Assembly: GCA_947589095.1 (NCBI GenBank)
Contig: CANQBX010000036.1
Coordinates: 1-37,928, forward strand
Direction: 5' to 3'
Length of the DNA: 37,928 nt
Source: an uncultured Lachnospiraceae bacterium
GTDB lineage: Bacteria > Bacillota > Clostridia > Lachnospirales > Lachnospiraceae
The translations under genes were made by a program, and so were the position numbers. Positions within the stretch are counted from its first letter, which is position 1; every line of letters starts with the position of its first letter. Of this stretch, positions 18,305 to 31,314 are shown piece by piece. The notes under the pieces were generated by a model. That model was not told where the DNA came from, ran no database searches, and saw only the letters and a program-made list of their open reading frames with translations.

Positions 18305-21040
18305 TCACAGCCATCTTTCCAGTGTCTCCAGAAGCTTGGAGATCTCCACCGGTTTCGCCACATGATCGTTCATGCCGGCTTCATGCGCGTTGCGGATGTC
18401 ATCCGCGAAGGCGTTGGCGCTCATGGCCACGATGGGAATATCCGCGGCATCCTTGCGGTCCAGACTGCGGATTGCGCGGACGGCCTCGTAACCGTCCATG
18501 ACCGGCATCTGAATATCCATGAAGATCAGATCATAATAGTTAAGAGGACTATGTTCTACCATTTCCACGGCAATTCTGCCGTTTTCCGCCTGTTCCACCG
18601 CAACGCCGATCACAGAAAGAAGCTCATTCGCGATCTCGCGGTTCAGCTCGTTGTCTTCTACCAGAAGGACGCGATTTCCGCTGAAATCAGCCTGCTTAAG
18701 GGCCGCGATGTCCGCCCGCTGGCGCTTCGCGCCCGTACTGCCGGTCTCCGTCCCGGCCGCAAATTTCTCTGCGTCCGTACTGCCGGTCTCTTCCCCGGCC
18801 CCCGTCCCGGCCGCAAATTTCTCCGCGCCCGCGCCGCCGGTCACTGCTCCGGTCTCTGTCCCGCCGACAAACGCTTCTGACCCCGCGGCAGCCTGTGCCG
18901 CCACATTTTCCCCGGACTCCGTCCCGTTTTCCGCGATGCGAAGCGGGACATTTACCGTGAAGCGTGAGCCTTCGCCTACGGTGCTTTCTACCTGAATGTC
19001 GCCGTTCATCATCCGGACGATATTCCGCGTGATCGCCATTCCGAGCCCGGTTCCCTCTACCTCCCGGCTGGCCGAGCTGTCGGCCCGCGTGAACGGATCG
19101 AAGATAGTCTTTAGAAATTCCGCATCCATTCCGATTCCGGTATCCTGGCAGACAAACTCATAGGAAGTCATCCCTGACGCGCAGATCCCGCATTCCCGCA
19201 CGGAGAATGTGATCGTTCCGCCTTTCGGCGTGAATTTGACCGCGTTGCCAAGGATATTTACCAGTACCTGCCGCAGCCGCAGAGCATCGCCGGACAGGCG
19301 GCTGTGGATGATATCGGATACCTGTATATTCAGCGTCTGGTTCCGGCTGTCTGTCTGGGACTGGATGATCGTGCGGATGCTCTCGATCAGCTCCTGCATC
19401 TCGAACGGCTCTTCCGAGAGCGTCACCTTGCCGCTCTCGATCTTCGACATATCCAGCACATCGTTGATCAGCGCCAGCAGGTGGCGGCTGGAGATCGTGA
19501 TCTTGTCCAGACAGTCGTTCAGCCGGTCTCTATCATCCAGATGCATCAGCGCCACGGCCGTCATGCCGATGATGGCGTTCATCGGCGTGCGGATATCGTG
19601 GGACATCCGGGCCAGGAAATCGGATTTGGCCTGGTTGGCCGCTTCCGCCGCCGCGGAAGCATTCTTGAGGGCCGTGCGGATCTGCTGCTCCTGCTCTTTC
19701 AGGGCCGTCACATCCTGGATCGCGTACAGAAGCCGTACTGGAACGCCGTTCTTCCGCTTCAGGCAGAGTACGGAAATATTCTCCCAGCGGTGACCTTCCA
19801 TATCGATCTCATACTCCCACTGCAGGTAAGGCACATCCTCGGTCAGGTGTTTCTGCACATAATCCCCGGAGATCAGCACGCTCATTTTCTCACCGTCCGG
19901 GCCGTCCGACAGATAATGGGCGTCCAGATAGCGGATCAGATCGGAGTATTTGCCGGTTTCCGGCGCGGAGGTGCCTTTACTTTCCAGATATTCGTAAGTG
20001 TCCTTCTCCAGATCTACCAGCGCAAAGCGGGTGAACAGAAGCGTCGCCGCGTCCACGATCCGCGAGATCTCCTGATTTTCGGAAACCAGCTGTTTCTTCT
20101 GGTACCGGTTCTTCAGAACGAGATAGAGGACATAGCACAAAAACGCGATGATCAGCCGGATCTCCAGCCAGATTCCCGCGGAGTTGGCCTGGCGGGACAT
20201 GTCTTTCGTCAGAGAGGACGGAAAATACTGGACCAGCATCCATTCGCCGTCTTTCAGCGCCGTGATATACGCGCTGCCCGCGCCCACGGAACCTTCGTAA
20301 TTAAAGCTGGTCGAGGTTCCCTGTACGAGCGCCAATACCAGCTTGTGCTGGTCGGCGTCCGACAGCTGGTTCCGGGAGGTCAGTGATTTCAGGAGATTCT
20401 CCGGATCCGAATCGTCGCCCGCGGAAATGATCACATTGCCGTTGCGCTCCAGCAGATAGCTGGAAGCCTGTACGCCGAAATAGCTGGATGTCAGGATATC
20501 GTAGACCGTATCCCCGCGCAGGATCCCGCTGAGCACGCCGATGATCTCATTTTCATAATAAAACGGAGAGTAGAAGATCAGCAGCGTCTCGTTGGTGATC
20601 CTGGAGTTGTAGATCACGCATTTGCCGCTGTTGCCGGCCATTCCGTCCAGGAAATATTCCCGGTCCGACAGATCCGCGGTTCGTCCGTCCGCCGTCAGGT
20701 CGATTCCGTCCCGGGAAATGAATTCCACGTAATCGAAGGTCGACCGGTCGATCATATCCTGGAGCATCTCCGAGTCTACCACCGGTTCCGGCATCGTCGT
20801 GCCGTAGAGGCTGCCCATGATCTCGACGCTGCTCTGGGCCATGCTGATCAGGTCGTTGATGCGGTTGCCGGTCTGCTCCGTCACCGATTCGATGAAGCTG
20901 TTGTTCTGCTCCAGGATCCGCTGGTTGTTGCTCCGTATGAACGCGATAAAGGAGAACGCAATGAACAGAAGGATTGCGCCGACAAACAGGATGTCCAGCA
21001 GGACGGGGCGGGTGTCTTTTTTTACAGTCTGGTCTTTCAT
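18305..21040 (-). CDS. Hybrid sensor histidine kinase with one receiver and a repetitive linker
   Basis: A 911-residue hybrid kinase. Membrane helices at about residues 14-34 and 290-310 bound a roughly 255-residue extracytoplasmic sensor of likely Cache layout (DYVEFISRDGIDLTADG; YSPFYYENEIIGVLSG). A PAS-like segment spans about 325-445, ending LLYAIQDVT. HisKA has H481 in RMSHDIRTPMNAI; the ATPase domain has N595/N599, DTGIGM (633-638) and GTGLGMAI (663-670). A single receiver at about 790-905 has D842 in LIFMDIQMP and K896. The linker at 710-775 is low-complexity (Ala, Gly, Thr, Glu) with an 18-residue repeat. The domain order and kinase core resemble the other hybrid kinase at 10963-13554, which has two receivers. 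Confidence 0.93.
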   Translation of the reverse strand: MKDQTVKKDTRPVLLDILFVGAILLFIAFSFIAFIRSNNQRILEQNNSFIESVTEQTGNRINDLISMAQSSVEIMGSLYGTTMPEPVVDSEMLQDMIDRSTFDYVEFISRDGIDLTADGRTADLSDREYFLDGMAGNSGKCVIYNSRITNETLLIFYSPFYYENEIIGVLSGILRGDTVYDILTSSYFGVQASSYLLERNGNVIISAGDDSDPENLLKSLTSRNQLSDADQHKLVLALVQGTSTSFNYEGSVGAGSAYITALKDGEWMLVQYFPSSLTKDMSRQANSAGIWLEIRLIIAFLCYVLYLVLKNRYQKKQLVSENQEISRIVDAATLLFTRFALVDLEKDTYEYLESKGTSAPETGKYSDLIRYLDAHYLSDGPDGEKMSVLISGDYVQKHLTEDVPYLQWEYEIDMEGHRWENISVLCLKRKNGVPVRLLYAIQDVTALKEQEQQIRTALKNASAAAEAANQAKSDFLARMSHDIRTPMNAIIGMTAVALMHLDDRDRLNDCLDKITISSRHLLALINDVLDMSKIESGKVTLSEEPFEMQELIESIRTIIQSQTDSRNQTLNIQVSDIIHSRLSGDALRLRQVLVNILGNAVKFTPKGGTITFSVRECGICASGMTSYEFVCQDTGIGMDAEFLKTIFDPFTRADSSASREVEGTGLGMAITRNIVRMMNGDIQVESTVGEGSRFTVNVPLRIAENGTESGENVAAQAAAGSEAFVGGTETGAVTGGAGAEKFAAGTGAGEETGSTDAEKFAAGTETGSTGAKRQRADIAALKQADFSGNRVLLVEDNELNREIANELLSVIGVAVEQAENGRIAVEMVEHSPLNYYDLIFMDIQMPVMDGYEAVRAIRSLDRKDAADIPIVAMSANAFADDIRNAHEAGMNDHVAKPVEISKLLETLERWL
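18735..18840. repeat. 54-bp repeat coding for the kinase linker
   Basis: A 21-bp exact repeat occurs at 18749-18769 and 18803-18823, 54 bp apart, with near-identical flanks. It encodes two copies of an 18-residue unit containing AEKFAAGT in the linker between the ATPase and receiver domains. Confidence 0.75.
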
Positions 21041-21307: not shown

Positions 21308-23011
21308 ATGAAATTTTCGGAAATGCAGTACGCCCGTCCCGACATGGACGAGCTGAAGAGGGAGTACGAGGCTCTGATCAGCCAGCTCAGGGCGGCGGAA
21401 AGCTACGACGAGGCCCGCGGGGTATTTCTTAAGAAGGAGAACCTGGAGGCGGAGGTTTCTACCCGGGAGACGCTGGCCCATGTGCGCCATTCCATCGATA
21501 CCCGCGATGCGTTCTACGACGACGAGGCTCATTTCTGGAACGCGGCGATGCCGGAGCTGGAGGTTTCGATGCAGGAGTGGACAAAGGCAATGCTTGAAAG
21601 CCCGTTTCGGCCTGATTTTGAGAAAGAGTTCGGGAAATTAATGTTTACGCGGGAGGAGATGGCGCTGAAGACGTTCTCGCCGGAGATCATTCCGGACCTG
21701 CAGCGGGAGAATGAACTGGTGCAGGAGTATGAAAAGCTTCTGGCGTCGGCGCAGATCCCCTTTGAAGGCGGCGTCTACACCCTGTCCCAGCTGTCGCCGT
21801 TTAAGACGTCGCCCGACGACACGGTGCGTCTGGCGGCCTGGAAGGCGGAAGGGCAGTGGTATAAAGAGCATCAGGAGCGGATGGACGATATCTACGACCA
21901 GCTGGTCCATCTGCGGGACGGCATGGGCAGGAAGCTGGGGTATGAGGGCTATACCACGCTTGGCTATTACCGCATGGGCCGCGAGTGCTACACGAAGGAA
22001 GACGTGGAGAAATTCCGCGAGGCGGTGCGCCGGTATCTGGTGCCTGTGGCGGTTTCCATTTACGAGGCCCAGGCGAAACGGCTGGGGAAGGAATATCCCA
22101 TGGATTACGCCGACAACGCGCTGCATTTCCGGTCGGGGAATCCCAGGCCGCAGGGGACGCCGGACGAGATCCTGGCCCAGGGCCTTACATTTTATGACGA
22201 ACTGTCGCCGGAGACCGGACGGTTCTTCCATATGATGGTGGACAGCGAGCTTCTGGATGTATTAAGCACCGAGGGCAAGCAGAGCGGCGGTTACTGTACC
22301 AGCATCCAGAAGTACGGCGTGCCGTTCATTTTCGCGAATTTCAACGGAACGCAGCATGATGTGGAGGTGGTCACCCATGAGGCGGGCCATGCGTTCGCGT
22401 ATTATGTGAACCGCGATCGGGTGCCGGCTTCCTATGCCTGGCCCAGCATGGAGGCCTGCGAGGTTCATTCCATGTCGATGGAGTTCATGTCCTGGCCGTG
22501 GGCGGAGGGTTTCTTCGGTCCGGATACACGTAAGTTCTACTACAGCCATTTAACAGGGGCGCTGACATTTATTCCCTACGGCACACTGGTGGATCATTTC
22601 CAGCATGTGGTGTATGAGAAACCGGATATGACGCCGGCGGAGCGACATGCGGTGTGGAAGGAGCTGTCGGGCGTCTATATGCCGTGGGCGAAGCTGGACG
22701 GGCAGATCCCGTTCTACGGCGACGGAGAGGCGTGGCAGCGGCAGCACCACATTTATTCAAGTCCCTTCTATTATATAGACTACTGTCTGGCGCAGACGGT
22801 GTCCCTGCAGTTCTGGGCGCTGATCAGGAAGGACCGTAAGGCCGCGTGGGAGCGCTATATGGCGTATACGAAGCAGGGCGGCAGCCGGGTATTCACGGAG
22901 CTTCTGGCAGAGGCCGGACTGGCCAGCCCGTTCGGGGCGGACTGTCTGCGGGATGTATGCGAGGAGGCCCGGAAATGGCTGGAGGGGTACGACCTGGGGG
23001 ATGTGCGCTGA
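21308..23011 (+). CDS. M3-family oligoendopeptidase (PepF-like)
   Basis: A 567-residue cytoplasmic zinc metallopeptidase of the M3B oligoendopeptidase type. The zinc motif HEAGH lies at 357-361 (preceded by DVEVVT), and the third ligand is probably E385 in ACEVHSMSMEF. Conserved M3 features also include SGGYCTSIQKYGVPFIFANFNGT just upstream and, near the C-terminus, FYYIDYCLAQTVSLQFW. Such enzymes cleave peptides of roughly 6-20 residues after import. It has no signal peptide. GGAGGTG precedes the ATG. The oligopeptide ABC operon starts 245 bp downstream on the same strand, which fits an import-then-hydrolyse peptide nutrition locus. Confidence 0.94.
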   Translation: MKFSEMQYARPDMDELKREYEALISQLRAAESYDEARGVFLKKENLEAEVSTRETLAHVRHSIDTRDAFYDDEAHFWNAAMPELEVSMQEWTKAMLESPFRPDFEKEFGKLMFTREEMALKTFSPEIIPDLQRENELVQEYEKLLASAQIPFEGGVYTLSQLSPFKTSPDDTVRLAAWKAEGQWYKEHQERMDDIYDQLVHLRDGMGRKLGYEGYTTLGYYRMGRECYTKEDVEKFREAVRRYLVPVAVSIYEAQAKRLGKEYPMDYADNALHFRSGNPRPQGTPDEILAQGLTFYDELSPETGRFFHMMVDSELLDVLSTEGKQSGGYCTSIQKYGVPFIFANFNGTQHDVEVVTHEAGHAFAYYVNRDRVPASYAWPSMEACEVHSMSMEFMSWPWAEGFFGPDTRKFYYSHLTGALTFIPYGTLVDHFQHVVYEKPDMTPAERHAVWKELSGVYMPWAKLDGQIPFYGDGEAWQRQHHIYSSPFYYIDYCLAQTVSLQFWALIRKDRKAAWERYMAYTKQGGSRVFTELLAEAGLASPFGADCLRDVCEEARKWLEGYDLGDVR

Positions 23012-23255: not shown

Positions 23256-25541
23256 ATGAAAAAAGCAAACAAAGTGCTGGCCATGCTTCTTGCTGCGGCT
23301 ATGGTAGCATCTTTGGCTGCCTGCGGCGGCGGAAGCGGTTCTCAGACCACGACTGCGGCTCCGGCAGCGGAAGAGACTACAGCGGCTCCGGCAGCAGAGG
23401 AGACCACGGCGGCCCCGGCGGAAGAGACCACTGGGGGGGCTGAAGAAGGCGCCTACACAGGTCCCGACTGGGCAGCGATCGACGCGATGAGCGACGACGA
23501 GCAGTCCGACGCAGTTTATGACTGGAACCTGGGCGAGTTCAACGAGTATTATCAGACTGCCAAGGCAGAGCTGGATGACATTCCGAAGCGTATGGCTCTG
23601 ATGGCGATCGCTGAGGCGAAGCTGATGGAGTCCGGCGCGTTCGTGCCGATCTACGGCGACGGCGGCAACTACGCGATGGGCCGTGTGGTTCCGCGTTCCG
23701 GGACCACTACTTCCTGGGGTCTTGACGAGTATAAGTATTACACCTATCTGGTGACCAATGAGCTGATGAAGGCGGCTGACCGTACCGCTCTGGTAGGTAT
23801 CTGGGGCGAGGCAGCGGATCATGACGACTACATCGACAAGGCGAAGGCTTTTCTGGAAGAGAACGGCTACACCCTGAACGATACTTATAACGTTAACCAG
23901 GGTACATACGATCCCGCTACCTGGGACGTGATCGCTTCTTCCTACACGCAGGATTCTCTGTTCGTAGCGCCGACTTACTCCGGCCTGCTGGAGTATGACG
24001 CGAAGAATGTGCAGCAGCCTGCGCTGGCTACCAGCTATGATATCTCCGACGACGGTACCGTATACACCTTCCATATCCGTGAGGGCGTGAAGTGGGTGGA
24101 TCAGCAGGGCCGTGAGATCGCGGACGTAACCGCGAACGACTGGGTTACTTCCATGATGCATCTGGCTGACAACAACGACGCTCTGGGATACCTGATGACC
24201 AGCACCGACGGCTGCGGCATCAAGAACTATGACGCGTACATTGCCGGCGAGGTTGGCTTCGAGGAAGTCGGCGTTAAGGCTATCGACGACTACACGCTGG
24301 AGTACACGCTGGAGAACAAGTTCCCGGCATTCGCGTCCATGATGGGATACGGCTGCTTCGCTCCGTTAAATTATGACTTCTACAAGTCTCAGGGCGGCAC
24401 CTTCGGCGCAGAGGGCGACGAGTACACCCCCGGCAACTACGGCACCAGCCCCGACACCATCGCTTACTGCGGTGCGTTCCTGGTACAGAGCTACACCTCT
24501 CAGGTGAGGACCGTCTATGTTGCGAACCCGACCTACTGGAACGCGGACAAGATGAACATCCACACCATGAACTACATCTACAATGACGGTACCGATACGA
24601 TGCGTGTCTACAACGACACCAAGTCCGGTGAATTCGCTGCCGGCGGCTTCAACGCTTCCGCTCTGGAAGTTGCGAAGACGGAGGTTCCGGAAGGCGAGAC
24701 CGAGACCTACTTCGATCTGTATCATTACACCACCACCAACTCCGCTACTACTTACTGCGGCTGGATGAATATGAACCGCGGTATCTGGGCGAACTACAAC
24801 GACAGCACGAAGGTCGTTTCTCCGCAGACCGATGAAGACAAGACCCGCACCCGCAGCGCTATGAACAACCAGCACTTCCGTCTGGCGATCGCGTTCGGTC
24901 TGGACCGCGGCGCTTACAATGCGGTATCTGTCGGCGAGGACCTGAAGTACGCTGCGCTGAAGAACTCCTTTGTAACCGGCAACTTCTATCAGTTCGAGGA
25001 TGAAGTGAGCGTCGATATCAACGGAACGGCTACCAGCTTCCCGGCGGGCACCTACTACGGCGAAGTGATGCAGGCCCAGATCGACGCGGACGGCTTCCCG
25101 ATCAAGGTTTGGGATCCGACGCTGGATGACGGCGTAGGTTCCGGCGATGGATTCGACGGCTGGTACAGCGTAGACAACTGCCGCGAGCAGCTGCAGATGG
25201 CGGTTGACGAGCTGGCACAGATCGGCGTTGAGGTTTCTGCTGATCAGCCGATCTACATCGACTATCCGTATGCTGCTTACAGTGAGTCGGCTACCAACAT
25301 GGCCAACGTCCTGAAGCAGTCGGTTGAGGCTTCCACGGAGGGCAAGATCATCGTCAACATCATCGGTGCTGAGGATGCCAAGACCCGTCAGTCCGCTGAC
25401 TATACCTTTGGCAGTGGTCAGGAAGCAAACTTCGATATCTCTCTTGGTTCCGGATGGGGCCCGGACTACGGCGATCCGCAGACCTTCCTGGATACGATCC
25501 AGCCGTGGGGCTACATGACCAAGAACCTGGGCGTATATTGA
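23256..25541 (+). CDS. Oligopeptide-binding lipoprotein with permuted domain order
   Basis: A 761-residue family-5 solute-binding lipoprotein. A signal peptide ends in the lipobox LAAC with lipidated C23, followed by a low-complexity linker (TTAAPAAEE repeats, about 30-62). Residues about 95-165 (AKAELDDIPKRMALMAIAEA, then FVPIYGDGGNYAMGRVVPR) look like the C-terminal end of OppA/DppA proteins. The usual N-terminal start of the family (DPATWDVIAS, then YSGLLEYD) appears only at about 219-248, and the protein stops at 733-761 (GWGPDYGDP, then YMTKNLGVY), where family members normally continue into the C-terminal segment. This reads as a circular permutation. It captures extracellular peptides for the permeases that follow. 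The stop is not a visible frameshift: the missing segment is absent downstream. Confidence 0.9.
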   Translation: MKKANKVLAMLLAAAMVASLAACGGGSGSQTTTAAPAAEETTAAPAAEETTAAPAEETTGGAEEGAYTGPDWAAIDAMSDDEQSDAVYDWNLGEFNEYYQTAKAELDDIPKRMALMAIAEAKLMESGAFVPIYGDGGNYAMGRVVPRSGTTTSWGLDEYKYYTYLVTNELMKAADRTALVGIWGEAADHDDYIDKAKAFLEENGYTLNDTYNVNQGTYDPATWDVIASSYTQDSLFVAPTYSGLLEYDAKNVQQPALATSYDISDDGTVYTFHIREGVKWVDQQGREIADVTANDWVTSMMHLADNNDALGYLMTSTDGCGIKNYDAYIAGEVGFEEVGVKAIDDYTLEYTLENKFPAFASMMGYGCFAPLNYDFYKSQGGTFGAEGDEYTPGNYGTSPDTIAYCGAFLVQSYTSQVRTVYVANPTYWNADKMNIHTMNYIYNDGTDTMRVYNDTKSGEFAAGGFNASALEVAKTEVPEGETETYFDLYHYTTTNSATTYCGWMNMNRGIWANYNDSTKVVSPQTDEDKTRTRSAMNNQHFRLAIAFGLDRGAYNAVSVGEDLKYAALKNSFVTGNFYQFEDEVSVDINGTATSFPAGTYYGEVMQAQIDADGFPIKVWDPTLDDGVGSGDGFDGWYSVDNCREQLQMAVDELAQIGVEVSADQPIYIDYPYAAYSESATNMANVLKQSVEASTEGKIIVNIIGAEDAKTRQSADYTFGSGQEANFDISLGSGWGPDYGDPQTFLDTIQPWGYMTKNLGVY

Positions 25542-25642: not shown

Positions 25643-27232
25643 ATGGGTAAATATATATTGAAGCGGCTTCTGCATGGGGCTTTCTCTGTGATCTGCGTCG
25701 TGATCATCGTTATGGTACTGGTCTATTCGCTTCTGGACCGGTCCCTGATCCTCGCGGGCGATTCCGGTTACAGCCATACGACCAGCAATAACCGCGAGAC
25801 ATATGTGCAGAGCCGTTATGAGGCGTTCGGCTATGTGGATTATATACCGTATTCCGATTATCTGAACGAGCTGGCGCGGAATGGCGAGATCGACGCGGAC
25901 ACGCAGACCGCCGCCGCCAGACTTGGCCGCACTGTGGAGAAGGATTCGGAGATCACGGCCCAGTATGTTCAGAAGTTTACCGAGACCTATGAGTCTCAGG
26001 GTTATCAGGTAGTCCGTCTGGACGCGGATACCAAAAGCAACGGACAGGTGAAGGACGGCGGCGCGGCGGCATTGTACGCTACCCGCGATAAGCCTTTGAT
26101 CAGCCGTGTGATTACTTACTTTACAGGGATGCTTTTCATTGACAACATCCATTTTGTACCCGATACCACAGACATCGGGAAAAGGGGTCTGACCTTTACC
26201 CTGTATGACCCGGTCTACAATCCCACGGGAACGGAGAAGAAGCTTTCTCCGGCCATCATCGGCAATGGCACCAAGCACAAATATCTGCTGTACCTGGATG
26301 ACCAGTTCCCCTATATTCATCAGAATTTTGCCACGTTGAACCTGGGCGAGTCCTATACGGTTAACCGGGGTGTGGACGTGTTCACCACAATGGTCGAATC
26401 CCAGGGCTCCTATGTGCTTCGTTCGCTGACCTTCCCGACCGGCCTTACCGAAGACAGCGCCGATAACCTTCATACTGCGATTTATGCGGAAGGTTCCCGG
26501 GAGATCAACCAGGTGTACGCCGCCCGCTTTAACGACGACTACACCAATATCAATACATTTAAGGCAGGCTTTTCCAAGCTGGGCTTCTCCTTCGTTATCG
26601 GAATCATTTCCACGATCATGGCCTATATCCTGGGCCTGCCGATCGGCCTCCTGATGGCGCTTCAGAAGGACAGGCTGATCGACAAGATCGGTACGATCTA
26701 CATTATGTTCATCATCGCGGTGCCCAGTCTTGCTTACATATTCCTGTTTAAGGCGGTGGGCGGCAAGCTCGGATTCCCGACGCTGTTCAACATGGAATCC
26801 CAGAGTAAGCTGATGTATGTCCTTCCGATCATATCTCTGGCGCTGCCGTCCGTGGCCAGCCTGATGAGATGGATGCGGCGTTACATGATCGACCAGATGA
26901 ATTCCGATTATGTGAAATTTGCCCGGTCCGGCGGTCTGTCCGAGAGGGAGATCTTCACCAAGCATATCTGGAAGAACGCTGCGATCCCCATCGTTCACGG
27001 CGTACCCGGCAGTGTGATCTTCGCCATGACCGGCGCCATTATTACCGAGCGTGTGTACAGCGTTCCCGGCGCCGGCAACCTGCTGACCAACGCGATCAAC
27101 AAGTATGATAATGGCGTAATCGTGGGCGTGACATTGTTCTACGCGGTTTTAAGCGTTGTTTCCCTCCTGCTGGGAGACATCCTGATGAGCGTGGTCGATC
27201 CGAGAATATCCTTCTCGACGAAAGAGAGGTGA
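25643..27232 (+). CDS. Oligopeptide ABC permease, OppB/DppB type, with large external insert
   Basis: A 529-residue inner-membrane permease. One helix at about 12-32 is followed by a roughly 280-residue hydrophilic region (34-312), then the permease core with helices from about 313 on. The EAA loop contacting the ATPase is visible (MNSDYVKFARSGGLSEREIF, then HIWKNAAIPIV). OppB/DppB proteins are usually about 310-340 residues with a short first external loop, so this one carries some 200 extra residues outside the membrane (for example GKRGLTFTLYDPVYN). The insert probably contacts the binding protein. It follows the binding-protein gene and overlaps none; the second permease starts 5 nt after its stop. 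Confidence 0.92.
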   Translation: MGKYILKRLLHGAFSVICVVIIVMVLVYSLLDRSLILAGDSGYSHTTSNNRETYVQSRYEAFGYVDYIPYSDYLNELARNGEIDADTQTAAARLGRTVEKDSEITAQYVQKFTETYESQGYQVVRLDADTKSNGQVKDGGAAALYATRDKPLISRVITYFTGMLFIDNIHFVPDTTDIGKRGLTFTLYDPVYNPTGTEKKLSPAIIGNGTKHKYLLYLDDQFPYIHQNFATLNLGESYTVNRGVDVFTTMVESQGSYVLRSLTFPTGLTEDSADNLHTAIYAEGSREINQVYAARFNDDYTNINTFKAGFSKLGFSFVIGIISTIMAYILGLPIGLLMALQKDRLIDKIGTIYIMFIIAVPSLAYIFLFKAVGGKLGFPTLFNMESQSKLMYVLPIISLALPSVASLMRWMRRYMIDQMNSDYVKFARSGGLSEREIFTKHIWKNAAIPIVHGVPGSVIFAMTGAIITERVYSVPGAGNLLTNAINKYDNGVIVGVTLFYAVLSVVSLLLGDILMSVVDPRISFSTKER

Positions 27233-27237
27233 GCTGA

Positions 27238-28206
27238 ATGGAGATCAATTATAAAGAGCTGGGTTTCACGGAGGAAGAGCTTTTTACCCGTGTGGATCAC
27301 AATGAGCTGGAGTCCGAGAAGATCACGGCGCCCCGGTATTCTTACTGGAAATCCGTGTTCCGCGTGTTCTTCCGCAACAAGCTGAATATCGTTATTCTGG
27401 CTCTGCTGCTGTTTATGATCCTGTTTGCGTATATTTACCCGAGTCTGACGGAGTACGATCCCTACGCGAATCTGATGGATCCGAATTCCAAGCATCTGTC
27501 GCCCATGGCGGCGCTGCAGTATTTCGGTCATAATATCCACTGGATCCTGGGCGCAGGCGCATCCGGCGAGTCGACCTTCGACGCGATCTGGAATGGTTCC
27601 CGTATCTCCATTTCGCTGGCCTTCATCTGCGGCGCCATCAACATGACGATCGGCGTTCTGGTGGGCGCGGTCTGGGGCTTCTCCAAGAAGGTGGACGCGT
27701 TCATGATCGAGATCTACAATATCGTCGGCAATGTGCCTTCGATCCTTCTGATCTCGGTTCTGGCCATGCTGTTTTCACCGACCTTCTGGACCATGGTGTT
27801 CGCGCTGACGGTCATCGGCTGGCTGAGCATCGCGTATTTCATACGTACCCAGGTTATCATCATCCGTGACCGAGAGTACAATCTGGCATCCAAATGCCTC
27901 GGTACATCCACGGTGAAGATCGCGATGAAGAATATCCTGCCGTTCATGACATCGGTGATCGTGACGCTGCTGGCGACAGAGATCCCGTCCTATATCTCCA
28001 CCGAAGTGTTCCTGTCCTATATCGGCATGGGCATGAGCGAGATGTCCCTGGGACGTCTGATCTATGCGGCGGAGGGCGCGATGGTCACGCCCGGCTGGGA
28101 ATTCGAATTCTGGAGCCCGGTTGCCATCGCATCCATCATCACGGTGGTGCTCTATGTAGCCGGTCAGAACTTAGGCGATGCGTCCGATCCGCGGACGCAT
28201 ATGTAA
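27238..28206 (+). CDS. Oligopeptide ABC permease, OppC/DppC type
   Basis: A 322-residue inner-membrane permease with the N-terminal cytoplasmic stretch and first helix typical of OppC (FRVFFRNKLNIVILALLLFM), then five further helices. The EAA loop is IRDREYNLASKCLGTSTVKI, then KNILPF. The end GQNLGDASDPR is the classic OppC/DppC C-terminus. It forms a heterodimer with the preceding permease. The gene starts 5 nt after that gene, behind AAAGAGGTGA. Length is close to the family norm, unlike its neighbours. Confidence 0.94.
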   Translation: MEINYKELGFTEEELFTRVDHNELESEKITAPRYSYWKSVFRVFFRNKLNIVILALLLFMILFAYIYPSLTEYDPYANLMDPNSKHLSPMAALQYFGHNIHWILGAGASGESTFDAIWNGSRISISLAFICGAINMTIGVLVGAVWGFSKKVDAFMIEIYNIVGNVPSILLISVLAMLFSPTFWTMVFALTVIGWLSIAYFIRTQVIIIRDREYNLASKCLGTSTVKIAMKNILPFMTSVIVTLLATEIPSYISTEVFLSYIGMGMSEMSLGRLIYAAEGAMVTPGWEFEFWSPVAIASIITVVLYVAGQNLGDASDPRTHM

Positions 28207-28219
28207 GGAGGACAGCGAT

Positions 28220-29971
28220 ATGGAAGAGAAGAAGAAGGTATTGCTGTCGATCCAGAACCTGACAGTGAAATTCCGTGTCCGCGGCCGTATTCTGACCGCG
28301 ATCCGTGGAATCAGTCTTGATATTTATGAAAATGAGTCTATCGCTATCGTGGGCGAGTCCGGTTCCGGCAAATCCGTTCTGACGAAGACATTTGCGGGAA
28401 TGACGGATTCCAACGGTTATATCGACGAGGGCAAGCTGATCTTCGATGATCCGGAGCTGGCGGATACGGTTGTAAAGCTGACGCCCGGAGCCCGGAAGCT
28501 GATGCAGGGAACCTTGTCGAGGTTAAACGACATTTCCCGGTATGAGCTGGGGGCCGAGACATATAAGAAGATCAAGAAGCTGGAAGCGGAGAAGAAGAGC
28601 CGTGAATCCATAAGCGATGAAGAGCGGGCCGCGATCGAGAAAGAGATCGGCGACATGAAGTTTAAGCGGACCAACCTCTTCAATGAAAAGCAGACCTACG
28701 ATCCGCATCATGAGAAGGACCGCATTAAGGCCGCCGATCAGAAGCTGAAGGAATACGACGAGAAGATCAAGGCTCTGGAGAACAAAGAGGCGGAAGAAGA
28801 GAAGGCCCGCAAAGCGGAGGCTGCGAAGGATACCGCTTTTATCGAGAATTATAATAAGCAAATGGCAGAGCTGAAGGCGAAGTATGAGCAGGAGATCAAA
28901 GGGCAGATTTCCGAGGAGACGAAGAAACGCAATGAGATCCTGGGCAAGGAGATCCGCCTGTCCGTAGGCCGTTACAGCCTTGTGAAGCGCATCCAGCTGA
29001 CCCATAAGCTTCTGCTGGCTCTGAAGCAGGCCATGCAGATCGGCGTGGATCTGAACGATGAGGAGCAGCGCAACGCCGTCTTCGATACGGTGGCGTTCCG
29101 TGTAAAGTATCTGGATGAGACGCCGGGTCAGCTTCACGGAACCTGCGTGCTGAACCTGGCCAGCGTCAAGTACAGCAAGGACTGGCTGCAGATTCGCGGA
29201 CGCAGGATCGCTACGGTATTCCAGGATCCGATGACCAGCTTAAACCCGATCATTACCATCGGCAAGCAGATTTCCTCCGTTATCATCAAGCACCAGCAGT
29301 GCTCGGAGGTGGAAGCCCGCAGGCGCGCCATCGAGCTGATGCATAAGGTAGGGATCCCCAATGCGGAGGCCCGTTTTGACGATTATCCGTTCCAGTATTC
29401 CGGCGGCATGAGACAGCGTATCGTTATCGCGATCGCCCTGTCCTGCCAGCCGAAGATCCTGATCTGCGACGAGCCGACCACGGCTCTGGACGTTACGATC
29501 CAGGCCCAGATCCTGCAGCTGATCAAGGATCTGCAGAAGGAGTTCGGATTCACGATCGTATTCATTACGCATGACCTGGGCGTGGTCGCCAATATCGCTG
29601 ACCGCGTGGCCGTTCTCTATGCCGGACAGGTTGTGGAGGTCGGTAAGGTAGAGGAGGTCTTTTATGACCCGCGCCATCCGTACACCTGGGCGCTTCTGTC
29701 CAGCCTGCCGCAGCTGGCCCAGCGGAATACGCAGCTGTATTCCATTACCGGTACGCCGCCGTCCCTGTACAACAGTATCGTCGGCGACGCGTTTGCGCCC
29801 CGCAATCCGTACTGCTTAAAGATCGATACGCTTCTGGAGCCGCCGATGTTTAAGGTGACGGACACACACTACGCGAAGACCTGGCTTCTGGATCCGCATG
29901 CCCCGAAGGTTGAGAAACCGGAAGGCATCCGCGACATCCACGGCAAGCTGATGGAAGCATTCAATATCTAA
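28220..29971 (+). CDS. Oligopeptide ABC ATPase, DppD/OppD type, with coiled-coil insert
   Basis: A 583-residue ABC ATPase. Walker A is GESGSGKS at 45-52, the Q-loop FQDP has Q335, the signature YSGGMRQR is at 393-400, Walker B ILICDEPT at 413-420 and the switch H451. The C-terminal oligopeptide-binding extension typical of DppD/OppF proteins is present ([12 protein letters not shown], then GTPPSLYN). Walker A to Q-loop is about 284 residues compared with roughly 50-60 normally. The extra region (about 75-325) is charged, Glu/Lys-rich and predicted as coiled coil around 113-240. All catalytic motifs are intact. The start at 28220 follows AAGGAGGACAG; the second ATPase follows after 14 bp. Confidence 0.93.
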
Positions 29972-29985
29972 GGGAGGAAGGAAAA

Positions 29986-31314
29986 ATGGCGAATACTGAA
30001 ACAACGAAAAAAGGCCGTTCCCTCTTCCCCGAGCACGGCCCGATCGCAGAGAATGGCAGAGAGATACTTCTGTCCATTAAGGATATCGATATCACCTTCG
30101 GCAAGGGTGACAGCGCTGTAAAGGCTGTTACAGACGCGTCCTTTGACATCTACAAGGGAGAGACCTTCTCCCTGGTCGGCGAGTCCGGCTCCGGCAAGAC
30201 GACTATCGGCCGCGCGGTCATCCGCGTGAACCCGCTGGCAGCCGGCGAGATCCAGTACAAGGGAGTCCGTATTTCAGGAAAGATCTCCCACGCGCTGGAC
30301 CGGGAGGTCATCCGCAACGTACAGATGGTATTCCAGGACCCGGCGGCCTCACTGAATGAGCGCGCCACCGTGGATTATATCATTTCCGAGGGACTTTACA
30401 ACTTCGGCCTCTTTGAGAATGAGGCGGACCGCGTGCAGAAGGTGGAGAATATGATCAATGAGGTCGGTCTTCTGCCGGAGCACCTGACCCGCTACCCGCA
30501 TGAATTTTCCGGCGGCCAGCGCCAGCGTATCGGAATCGCCCGAGCGATGGTCATGGAGCCGGAGCTGGTAGTGGCCGACGAGCCGATCTCGGCGCTGGAT
30601 GTATCCATCCGCGCGCAGGTGCTGAACCTGATGAAGAAGTTCCAGAAGGAGAAGGACGTTACCTACCTGTTCATCGCCCATGACCTGAGCGTAGTCCGGT
30701 TCATATCCGACCGGATCGGCGTTATCTACAAGGGCCGCATCGTAGAGGTGGCGGAAGCGGAGGAGCTGTTCGACTTCCCGCTGCATCCGTACACCCACTC
30801 GCTGATCTCGGCGATCCCGATCCCGGATCCGCAGCTGGAGAAGAACAAGGTGCAGTATGTATATGATCCTTCGATCCATGACTACAGTGTGGATAAGCCG
30901 GAGTTCGTAAACATCGGCCATGACCACTGGGTCTACGGTAATAAAGCGGAGATCGAGAAGTATAAGGCGCTCCGCGAGAAGGGCGAGCCGGTGAAGGCCG
31001 TCACGATCGTGTCGCCGGATGAGGTGGAGAAGGCCGCGGAGGCCCGCAAGGTCGCCGAGGAGGCGCAGGAGAAGAAGATGGCGAAGGAGCTGGAGGAATT
31101 CCTTCAGGCCCCGACACACGATACAGGAAGTATCTGGTATACGCTTATTTCCTTCTTCCTGCCGGTACTTGGCCTGATCGCGGGTGCGGTGTTTAAGCAT
31201 TTCAGGCATAAGAGGAACGCGAAGGCGTGCTTTAAGGGAGCTGCCATTGGATTTATCGTGCTGGCGGCGATCGTCGTGGTGTTCCTGCTGCTATTGATAC
31301 TGGCGGTGGTGTAG
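29986..31314 (+). CDS. Oligopeptide ABC ATPase, OppF/DppF type, with membrane tail
   Basis: A 442-residue ABC ATPase. Walker A GESGSGKT is at 65-72, Q117 in [10 protein letters not shown], the signature FSGGQRQR at 174-181, Walker B LVVADEP at 194-200 and the switch H232. The oligopeptide family tail ([12 protein letters not shown]) follows. Beyond residue 345 an Ala/Glu/Lys helix leads into two hydrophobic segments at about 383-403 and 418-440 separated by [10 protein letters not shown]. This tail resembles the small membrane module found at the end of several zinc-ribbon proteins in Firmicutes. It would anchor the ATPase to the membrane. The two ATPases should form the heterodimer driving the transporter. 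The next gene starts 6 nt after the stop. Confidence 0.92.

Follow-up and report, generated by a model that had tools for sequence, protein, structure and literature searches.

Rotated chain order in an oligopeptide-binding protein of a Lachnospiraceae bacterium and its recurrence among family-5 binding proteins

The pneumococcal receptors AmiA, AliB, AliC and AliD (PDB 8a42, 8qlj, 8qlh and 8qlc; PMC11192437) are the best solved matches, in both sequence and fold, to a 761-residue protein encoded in the stretch of DNA analysed here, 37,928 nucleotides from an uncultured Lachnospiraceae bacterium (contig CANQBX010000036.1; hereafter the window, at its full length). The Ami system resembles the window's in having lipoprotein receptors of an Opp-type importer, a large AmiC-like permease, and the tryptophan and aspartate of the peptide-holding motif. 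The four receptors differ from the window protein in their canonical chain order, which begins and ends in domain I (lobe 1). Bacillus subtilis OppA (8are) and DppE (8ay0) share the Pfam family and the fold, but they too have the canonical order; they give near-complete two-piece matches to other permuted types of protein described below. The window gene very probably encodes a natural circular permutant of the peptide-binding lipoprotein that serves an Ami/Opp-type ATP-binding cassette (ABC) importer. The gene and its predicted parts lie as follows.

23256..25541, + strand: putative circularly permuted oligopeptide-binding lipoprotein, OppA/AmiA class (open reading frame (ORF) of 761 residues)
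23256..23324, + strand: signal peptide and lipobox LAAC (residues 20-23), lipidated cysteine at residue 23 (from sequence, by pattern match)
23325..23453, + strand: Ala/Thr/Glu/Pro low-complexity linker, residues 24-66 (from sequence; predicted local distance difference test score (pLDDT) of the model below 50 for residues 1-64)
23454..23861, + strand: C-terminal segment of the canonical fold in displaced position, residues 67-202 as drawn (matches cover about 80-195)
23862..23879, + strand: presumed new junction of old C-terminus and old N-terminus, residues 203-208 (rotation test and model)
23880..25538, + strand: canonical fold, beginning at its N-terminal strand and ending in the loop after WGPDYGDPQTFLD, residues 209-761 (Pfam, phmmer, structural superposition, rotation test)
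25455..25469, + strand: WGPDY motif, residues 734-738 (invariant in a 25-sequence alignment)

In PMC11192437 the lipobox is defined as [L][AST][A][C], and W498 and D501 of AliD hold the peptide N-terminus; by motif, the WGPDY of the window protein would correspond to this pair. Pfam matched SBP_bac_5 (PF00496) alone, with a best stretch of 254-748 at 145.6 bits against a gathering cut-off of 32.4, and the 17 NCBIfam families listed for the 761-residue protein all stayed below their own cut-offs. The N-to-C order expected of SBP_bac_5 is not the one found, as the C-terminal segment lies ahead of the core.

Comparison with solved structures by phmmer ranked pneumococcal AmiA, AliC, AliB and AliD first. 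Residues 217-750 of the window protein (P0001) matched AmiA chain positions 21-499 with 190.9 bits, and residues 80-168 matched AmiA 512-602 with 14.9 bits (i-Evalue 0.052), in swapped order relative to the core match. AliC and AliB gave the same reversed two-stretch pattern, with second stretches that were not significant alone (i-Evalue 2 and 8.1). Because this second stretch was weak with single sequences, we tested it with profiles. A tail profile of 24 homologous tail segments, searched against 177,635 distinct PDB sequences, matched just four of them at E<=1, namely AliC (3e-9), AmiA (1.2e-8), AliB (1.4e-4) and AliD (1.8e-4), all at their C-terminal ends (chain positions about 499-626). 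A second profile, of 622 positions and built from 17 canonical relatives, matched the mature protein twice: its positions 515-608 fell on residues 88-181 and its positions 49-497 on residues 221-748. The best of 143 rotations of the chain, starting at residue 203, merged these into a single match over model positions 49-605 of 622 with 282.9 bits, and starts from 198 to 218 all scored within half a bit of it. The tail alone scored 39.0 bits against this profile, compared with 9.4 for the best of 200 shuffles.

The opposite end of the protein agrees with this arrangement. The core runs to the loop at which the displaced segment should follow and is cut there cleanly, as an earlier note on this DNA had read it, and the cut falls in a stretch variable in length and sequence among five canonical relatives compared. 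Only 101 bases separate the stop codon from oppB, too short for the missing approximately 120 residues; the hairpin that the earlier note placed there was read by eye only. The note's boundaries for the displaced segment (95-165) and the start of the canonical domain (about 219) were nearly right: the tail matches span about 80-195, and the structure model predicts a helix at 189-202 followed by the first core strand at 210-216. This helix is the probable equivalent of the canonical C-terminal helix. Judged from the sequence, the chain order is that of a circular permutation, in which each matched part occurs once and the order is rotated.

The order is conserved among proteins of the window protein's kind, termed type A, whose cut lies near position 475 of a general profile described below. 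A genome-collection scan across all phyla, which recovers close relatives only, gave 27 loci, and among these Pseudoflavonifractor sp. MSJ-30 (L018) is the sole record not titled as a metagenome-assembled genome (MAG). By the matches listed, at least 9 of 200 genomes of the family and at least 5 of 391 of the class carry a type A protein, the window's own genome being counted in both. The tail precedes the core in all 38 distinct type A proteins, window included (L021, L023 and L039 among them end at contig edges), and follows it in 8/8 distinct canonical relatives (11 loci) where phmmer detects both parts. A PF00496 search of the window genome listed three matches, the window protein and two others; one of the latter, L029, is a receptor that groups with the canonical sister clade and is accompanied by a separate oppBCDF set. 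Two contigs filed as Muribaculaceae and Rikenella MAGs, L001 and L002, carry type A genes with 74% identity to that of the window; type A genes otherwise occur in records with Clostridia-like titles, and these two contigs are possibly mis-binned. The linker also varies, as the type A relative L026 (2507-5419) has a TEAPTEA-type repeat of about 240 residues between lipobox and permuted domain, compared with about 43 in the window protein.

The N-terminal segment could instead be an unrelated extra domain placed before an otherwise ordinary binding protein whose C-terminus is truncated, and Pfam and the structural aligners do cover the core only. This is very improbable, given that the segment profile matches the C-termini of Ami/Ali receptors alone among PDB sequences, that the segment by itself gives no confident domain, that the native termini and the cut complement each other, and that the arrangement is conserved in 38 distinct proteins. 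The outcome that the earlier note named as fatal to a permutation, a separate N-terminal domain with the canonical tail elsewhere, was not seen: a second tail did not turn up in the type A proteins, and the model of the tail alone is not confident, the latter being weak evidence. The permutation itself, which that note had proposed, is borne out by the tail profile, the rotation test and the conserved order.

The sequence shows that in the permuted chain the canonical end of the fold (the end of lobe 2, then the final portion of domain I with the C-terminal helix) comes first and the old N-terminal part next, leaving the new chain end in a lobe 2 loop. The former N- and C-termini are both placed in domain I; this would account for the tolerance of their joining, and the joined chain could fold to the ordinary two-lobed shape. 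It would bind peptide through the retained WGPD motif and pass it on to the adjacent OppB/AmiC-OppC permease. Physically, the chief change would be in the attachment of the lipid anchor and its linker, to lobe 2 rather than lobe 1. Duplication, fusion and trimming are the standard route to circular permutation, and a tandem gene duplication and fusion followed by trimming is the likely origin here as well; the front of copy one would have been lost behind its signal peptide, together with the end of copy two.

Several observations weigh against this reading. The whole-protein model is of moderate quality (pLDDT 68.4, predicted template modelling score (pTM) 0.65), and its stretches with pLDDT below 50 include 716-736, at the start of the WGPD motif, and 747-761. 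The model of the tail alone is poor (pLDDT 58.2, pTM 0.41); a structure search with it returned helical hairpins only and no binding-protein row, which shows nothing. Sequential aligners superposed the core (207-761) on AmiA, but the displaced segment was not superposed on a solved structure. No duplicated intermediate turned up, although no search was aimed at one. The displaced segment might also complete the fold of a second molecule, giving a domain-swapped dimer, and AliC was crystallised as such a dimer according to the available part of PMC11192437. We regard this as quite unlikely for the window protein, as the short link from the segment to the domain I strand it should pack beside would favour packing within the same chain.

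Further permuted family-5 proteins were found in the window's class and phylum, and the stretches scanned around them adjoin opp genes. Three matches from the 391-genome class search proved permuted at a place other than that of type A. We placed the cuts on a general canonical profile of 56 sequences and 549 positions, which misses the tails of L034, L035 and L063 (not counted as canonical in the trees). A rotation test with this profile was uninformative, its matches being fragmented in any order. Three cut places recur, at about 308, 385 and 475, the proteins outside type A being distributed as follows.

Cut at about 385: L077, L076, L083, L131-L138, L168
Cut at about 308: L119, L166, L140, L169
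Cut at about 475, outside type A: L120, L167

On B. subtilis OppA, the second part of L077 corresponds to 16-364 and its first part to 367-508, and L119 covers the same protein in two pieces, 17-287 and 294-522; L120 covers DppE as 28-444 and 451-512. In twelve non-A permuted proteins, seven residues at most connect the former termini. A junction profile, A2, was built from four non-A permuted proteins and searched in the window's phylum, where only permuted genes match to within three positions of both profile ends. It found permuted genes in at least 10 of 398 phylum genomes, none of which had contributed to the profile, and in at least 9 of 382 class genomes, of which four had. As the window's own type A gene falls under the threshold of both searches, these counts are lower bounds. 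The canonical profile confirmed the permuted order in 9/10 phylum cases and 9/9 class cases, the tenth phylum case (G943) only as two ORFs. Three A2 matches starting at position 36-50 are canonical (L176, L177 and L180; G697, of the same kind, was left out).

Two permuted genes are broken. The G943 gene (L139/L186) is interrupted by an in-frame TGA and has an intact relative in L138, and the G227 gene (L121/L196; cut about 385) is split into two overlapping frames at ambiguous assembly bases. A frameshift, an assembly error or a chimeric gene could be suspected in the window as well, seeing that genes elsewhere are interrupted at ambiguous bases (L121/L196) or by an in-frame stop (L139/L186). 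This is extremely improbable, because the 38 distinct type A proteins come from many contigs and genomes (a contig end truncates three of the proteins), and other permuted types occur in G236 and G768, two genomes that are each listed with a single contig.

To place rotated and canonical chains in one tree, alignment columns were set by profile position. The careful tree was thinned from 147 rows to 72, keeping 9 of 35 for type A, 15 of 18 for the other permuted proteins and 48 of 94 for the canonical ones; neither it nor the first tree includes the core pieces of the broken genes L092 and L139. Among the canonical rows, 47 of 48 have core then tail in one ORF, and L096 stops before the tail. 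The tree required eight changes of arrangement label, as did the first FastTree tree of all 147 rows; taken singly on the 72-row tree, cut 475 required two changes, cut 385 three and cut 308 three. Scored as permuted versus canonical, the 72-row tree gave seven changes, at least six of them forced by well-supported branches. Approximately unbiased (AU) tests rejected a single clade of all permuted rows (p 2e-38) and a single clade for each cut (475, p 4.8e-5; 385, p 3.3e-6; 308, p 6.4e-7). A single permutation shared by type A and L120/L167, via their common loop, was likewise rejected by an AU test. With four rows only, cut 308 does not cluster on the tree more than chance allows (27/500 shuffles were as low). 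Type A forms a clade with support 100/100, beside a canonical Ami-like clade that includes L029 (95/79 with L070, 100/100 without). Gain and loss are not distinguishable on the tree; from its breadth, the canonical order would be ancestral. Under the tree model, permutation has originated repeatedly.

The cuts can be located in the fold through Borrelia OppA4, whose domain III is given as 286-503 in the available part of PMC5736914. On the OppA4 chain, cut 308 lies at about 296, cut 475 at about 445, and cut 385 between them, using chain positions assumed close to entry numbers. All three places fall in domain III (lobe 2), which shifts the N-terminal anchor out of lobe 1 and into lobe 2. No lobe 1 cut appeared among the A2 matches, though A2 should show cuts across much of lobe 1; coming from seven or eight events, the restriction to lobe 2 is no more than suggestive. 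We consider it likely that permutation has arisen on six or more occasions among the phylum's family-5 (cluster C) binding proteins, each time with a cut in lobe 2 and repeatedly in the same three loops, so that the chain order is labile and the tether movable from lobe 1 to the lobe that grips the peptide. The recurrence, the surprising part of the analysis, was not foreseen in the earlier note.

The permutation may even have been selected for moving the anchor to lobe 2 and re-orienting the receptor over its permease. The cut positions found map to domain III, in keeping with this idea, and the authors of a study of another permuted receptor, TpMglB-2, also raised tethering as a possible cause (PMC4990184, in the part available). 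A simple pattern finds a lipobox in 43/56 permuted rows. The remaining 13/56, which speak against a lipid anchor throughout, belong to three lineages (L002 and L019-L021, close type A relatives; L131-L138; L167), and several of their signal sequences look like signal peptidase I substrates. Moving a lipid anchor therefore cannot be the general reason for permutation. Long flexible linkers should also weaken any such effect, and a neutral origin accounts for the recurrence equally well; we consider selection for re-anchoring doubtful.

In the window, the permuted gene sits between an M3 peptidase gene and oppBCDF, with the following neighbours.

18305-21040, - strand: hybrid sensor kinase (HisKA, HATPase, receiver; dCache match below threshold), upstream of the peptidase gene and importer operon
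21308..23011, + strand: M3-family peptidase (PF01432), upstream of the permuted gene
25643..27232, + strand: OppB/AmiC-type permease, 529 residues, with a large region ahead of the permease domain (PF00528 at 331-523)
27238..28206, + strand: OppC permease (PF00528, PF12911)
28178..29971, + strand: OppD ATPase, 597 residues (PF00005, PF08352)
29986..31314, + strand: OppF ATPase, 442 residues (PF00005, PF08352)

We scanned 33 stretches, selected by length, around permuted genes of every type (L012 and L197 are the same gene). Every one of them contained opp genes and one gene for a family-5 solute-binding protein (SBP5), which is split into two ORFs in L186 and L196; in L190 and L191 the permuted gene lies near the opp cluster on the opposite strand. 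The window's OppB resembles AmiC, which has 498 residues and whose extracellular region was proposed as a receptor clamp in the available part of PMC11192437. Whole oppB ORFs in type A stretches measured 525-552 residues from stop to stop (the L199 stretch ends inside oppB), and those of four canonical Ami-like loci 324 (L200), 325 (L130), 335 (L129) and 498 (L128). Since one canonical locus also reaches 498 residues, a large OppB is not specific to permuted receptors. The window's OppD and OppF are long as well. A long OppD is shared by the type A relatives L197 (586 residues) and L198 (592 residues), and L198 has a long OppF (443 residues); OppD and OppF in most other scanned clusters have about 320-390 residues.

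A circular permutation found in nature is generally an isolated case. Here, one receptor family offers several permutations at three recurrent loops, beside ordinary operons and with canonical relatives for comparison, so the effect of chain order and of the anchored lobe on peptide capture and hand-over becomes directly testable. The family also carries a warning for annotation, in that Pfam marks just part of the chain and linear-order comparisons can miss up to nearly half of it (cut about 308). The naturally opened loops may serve as insertion sites for biosensors.

Permuted binding proteins are known from another structural class, while for the OppA class we found no description of a permuted receptor in the open-licence PMC literature, an absence that is weak evidence. 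The known example, TpMglB-2 (Tp0684) of Treponema pallidum, is a circularly permuted cluster B sugar-binding lipoprotein that binds glucose and closes or changes shape on binding (PMC4990184, in the part available to us, as for what follows). TpMglB-2 and its Gram-positive relatives are like the window type in being naturally permuted, tethered ABC binding proteins conserved in a clade. They are probably unlike it in fold, theirs being a Type I (cluster B) sugar-binding one, classed as type Ic / cluster Bc, whose final strands in TpMglB-2 are equivalent to the first ones of MglB; the 50 structure matches listed for the window protein were dominated by peptide binders of the OppA kind. For TpMglB-2 that part of the source does not mention repeated origins.
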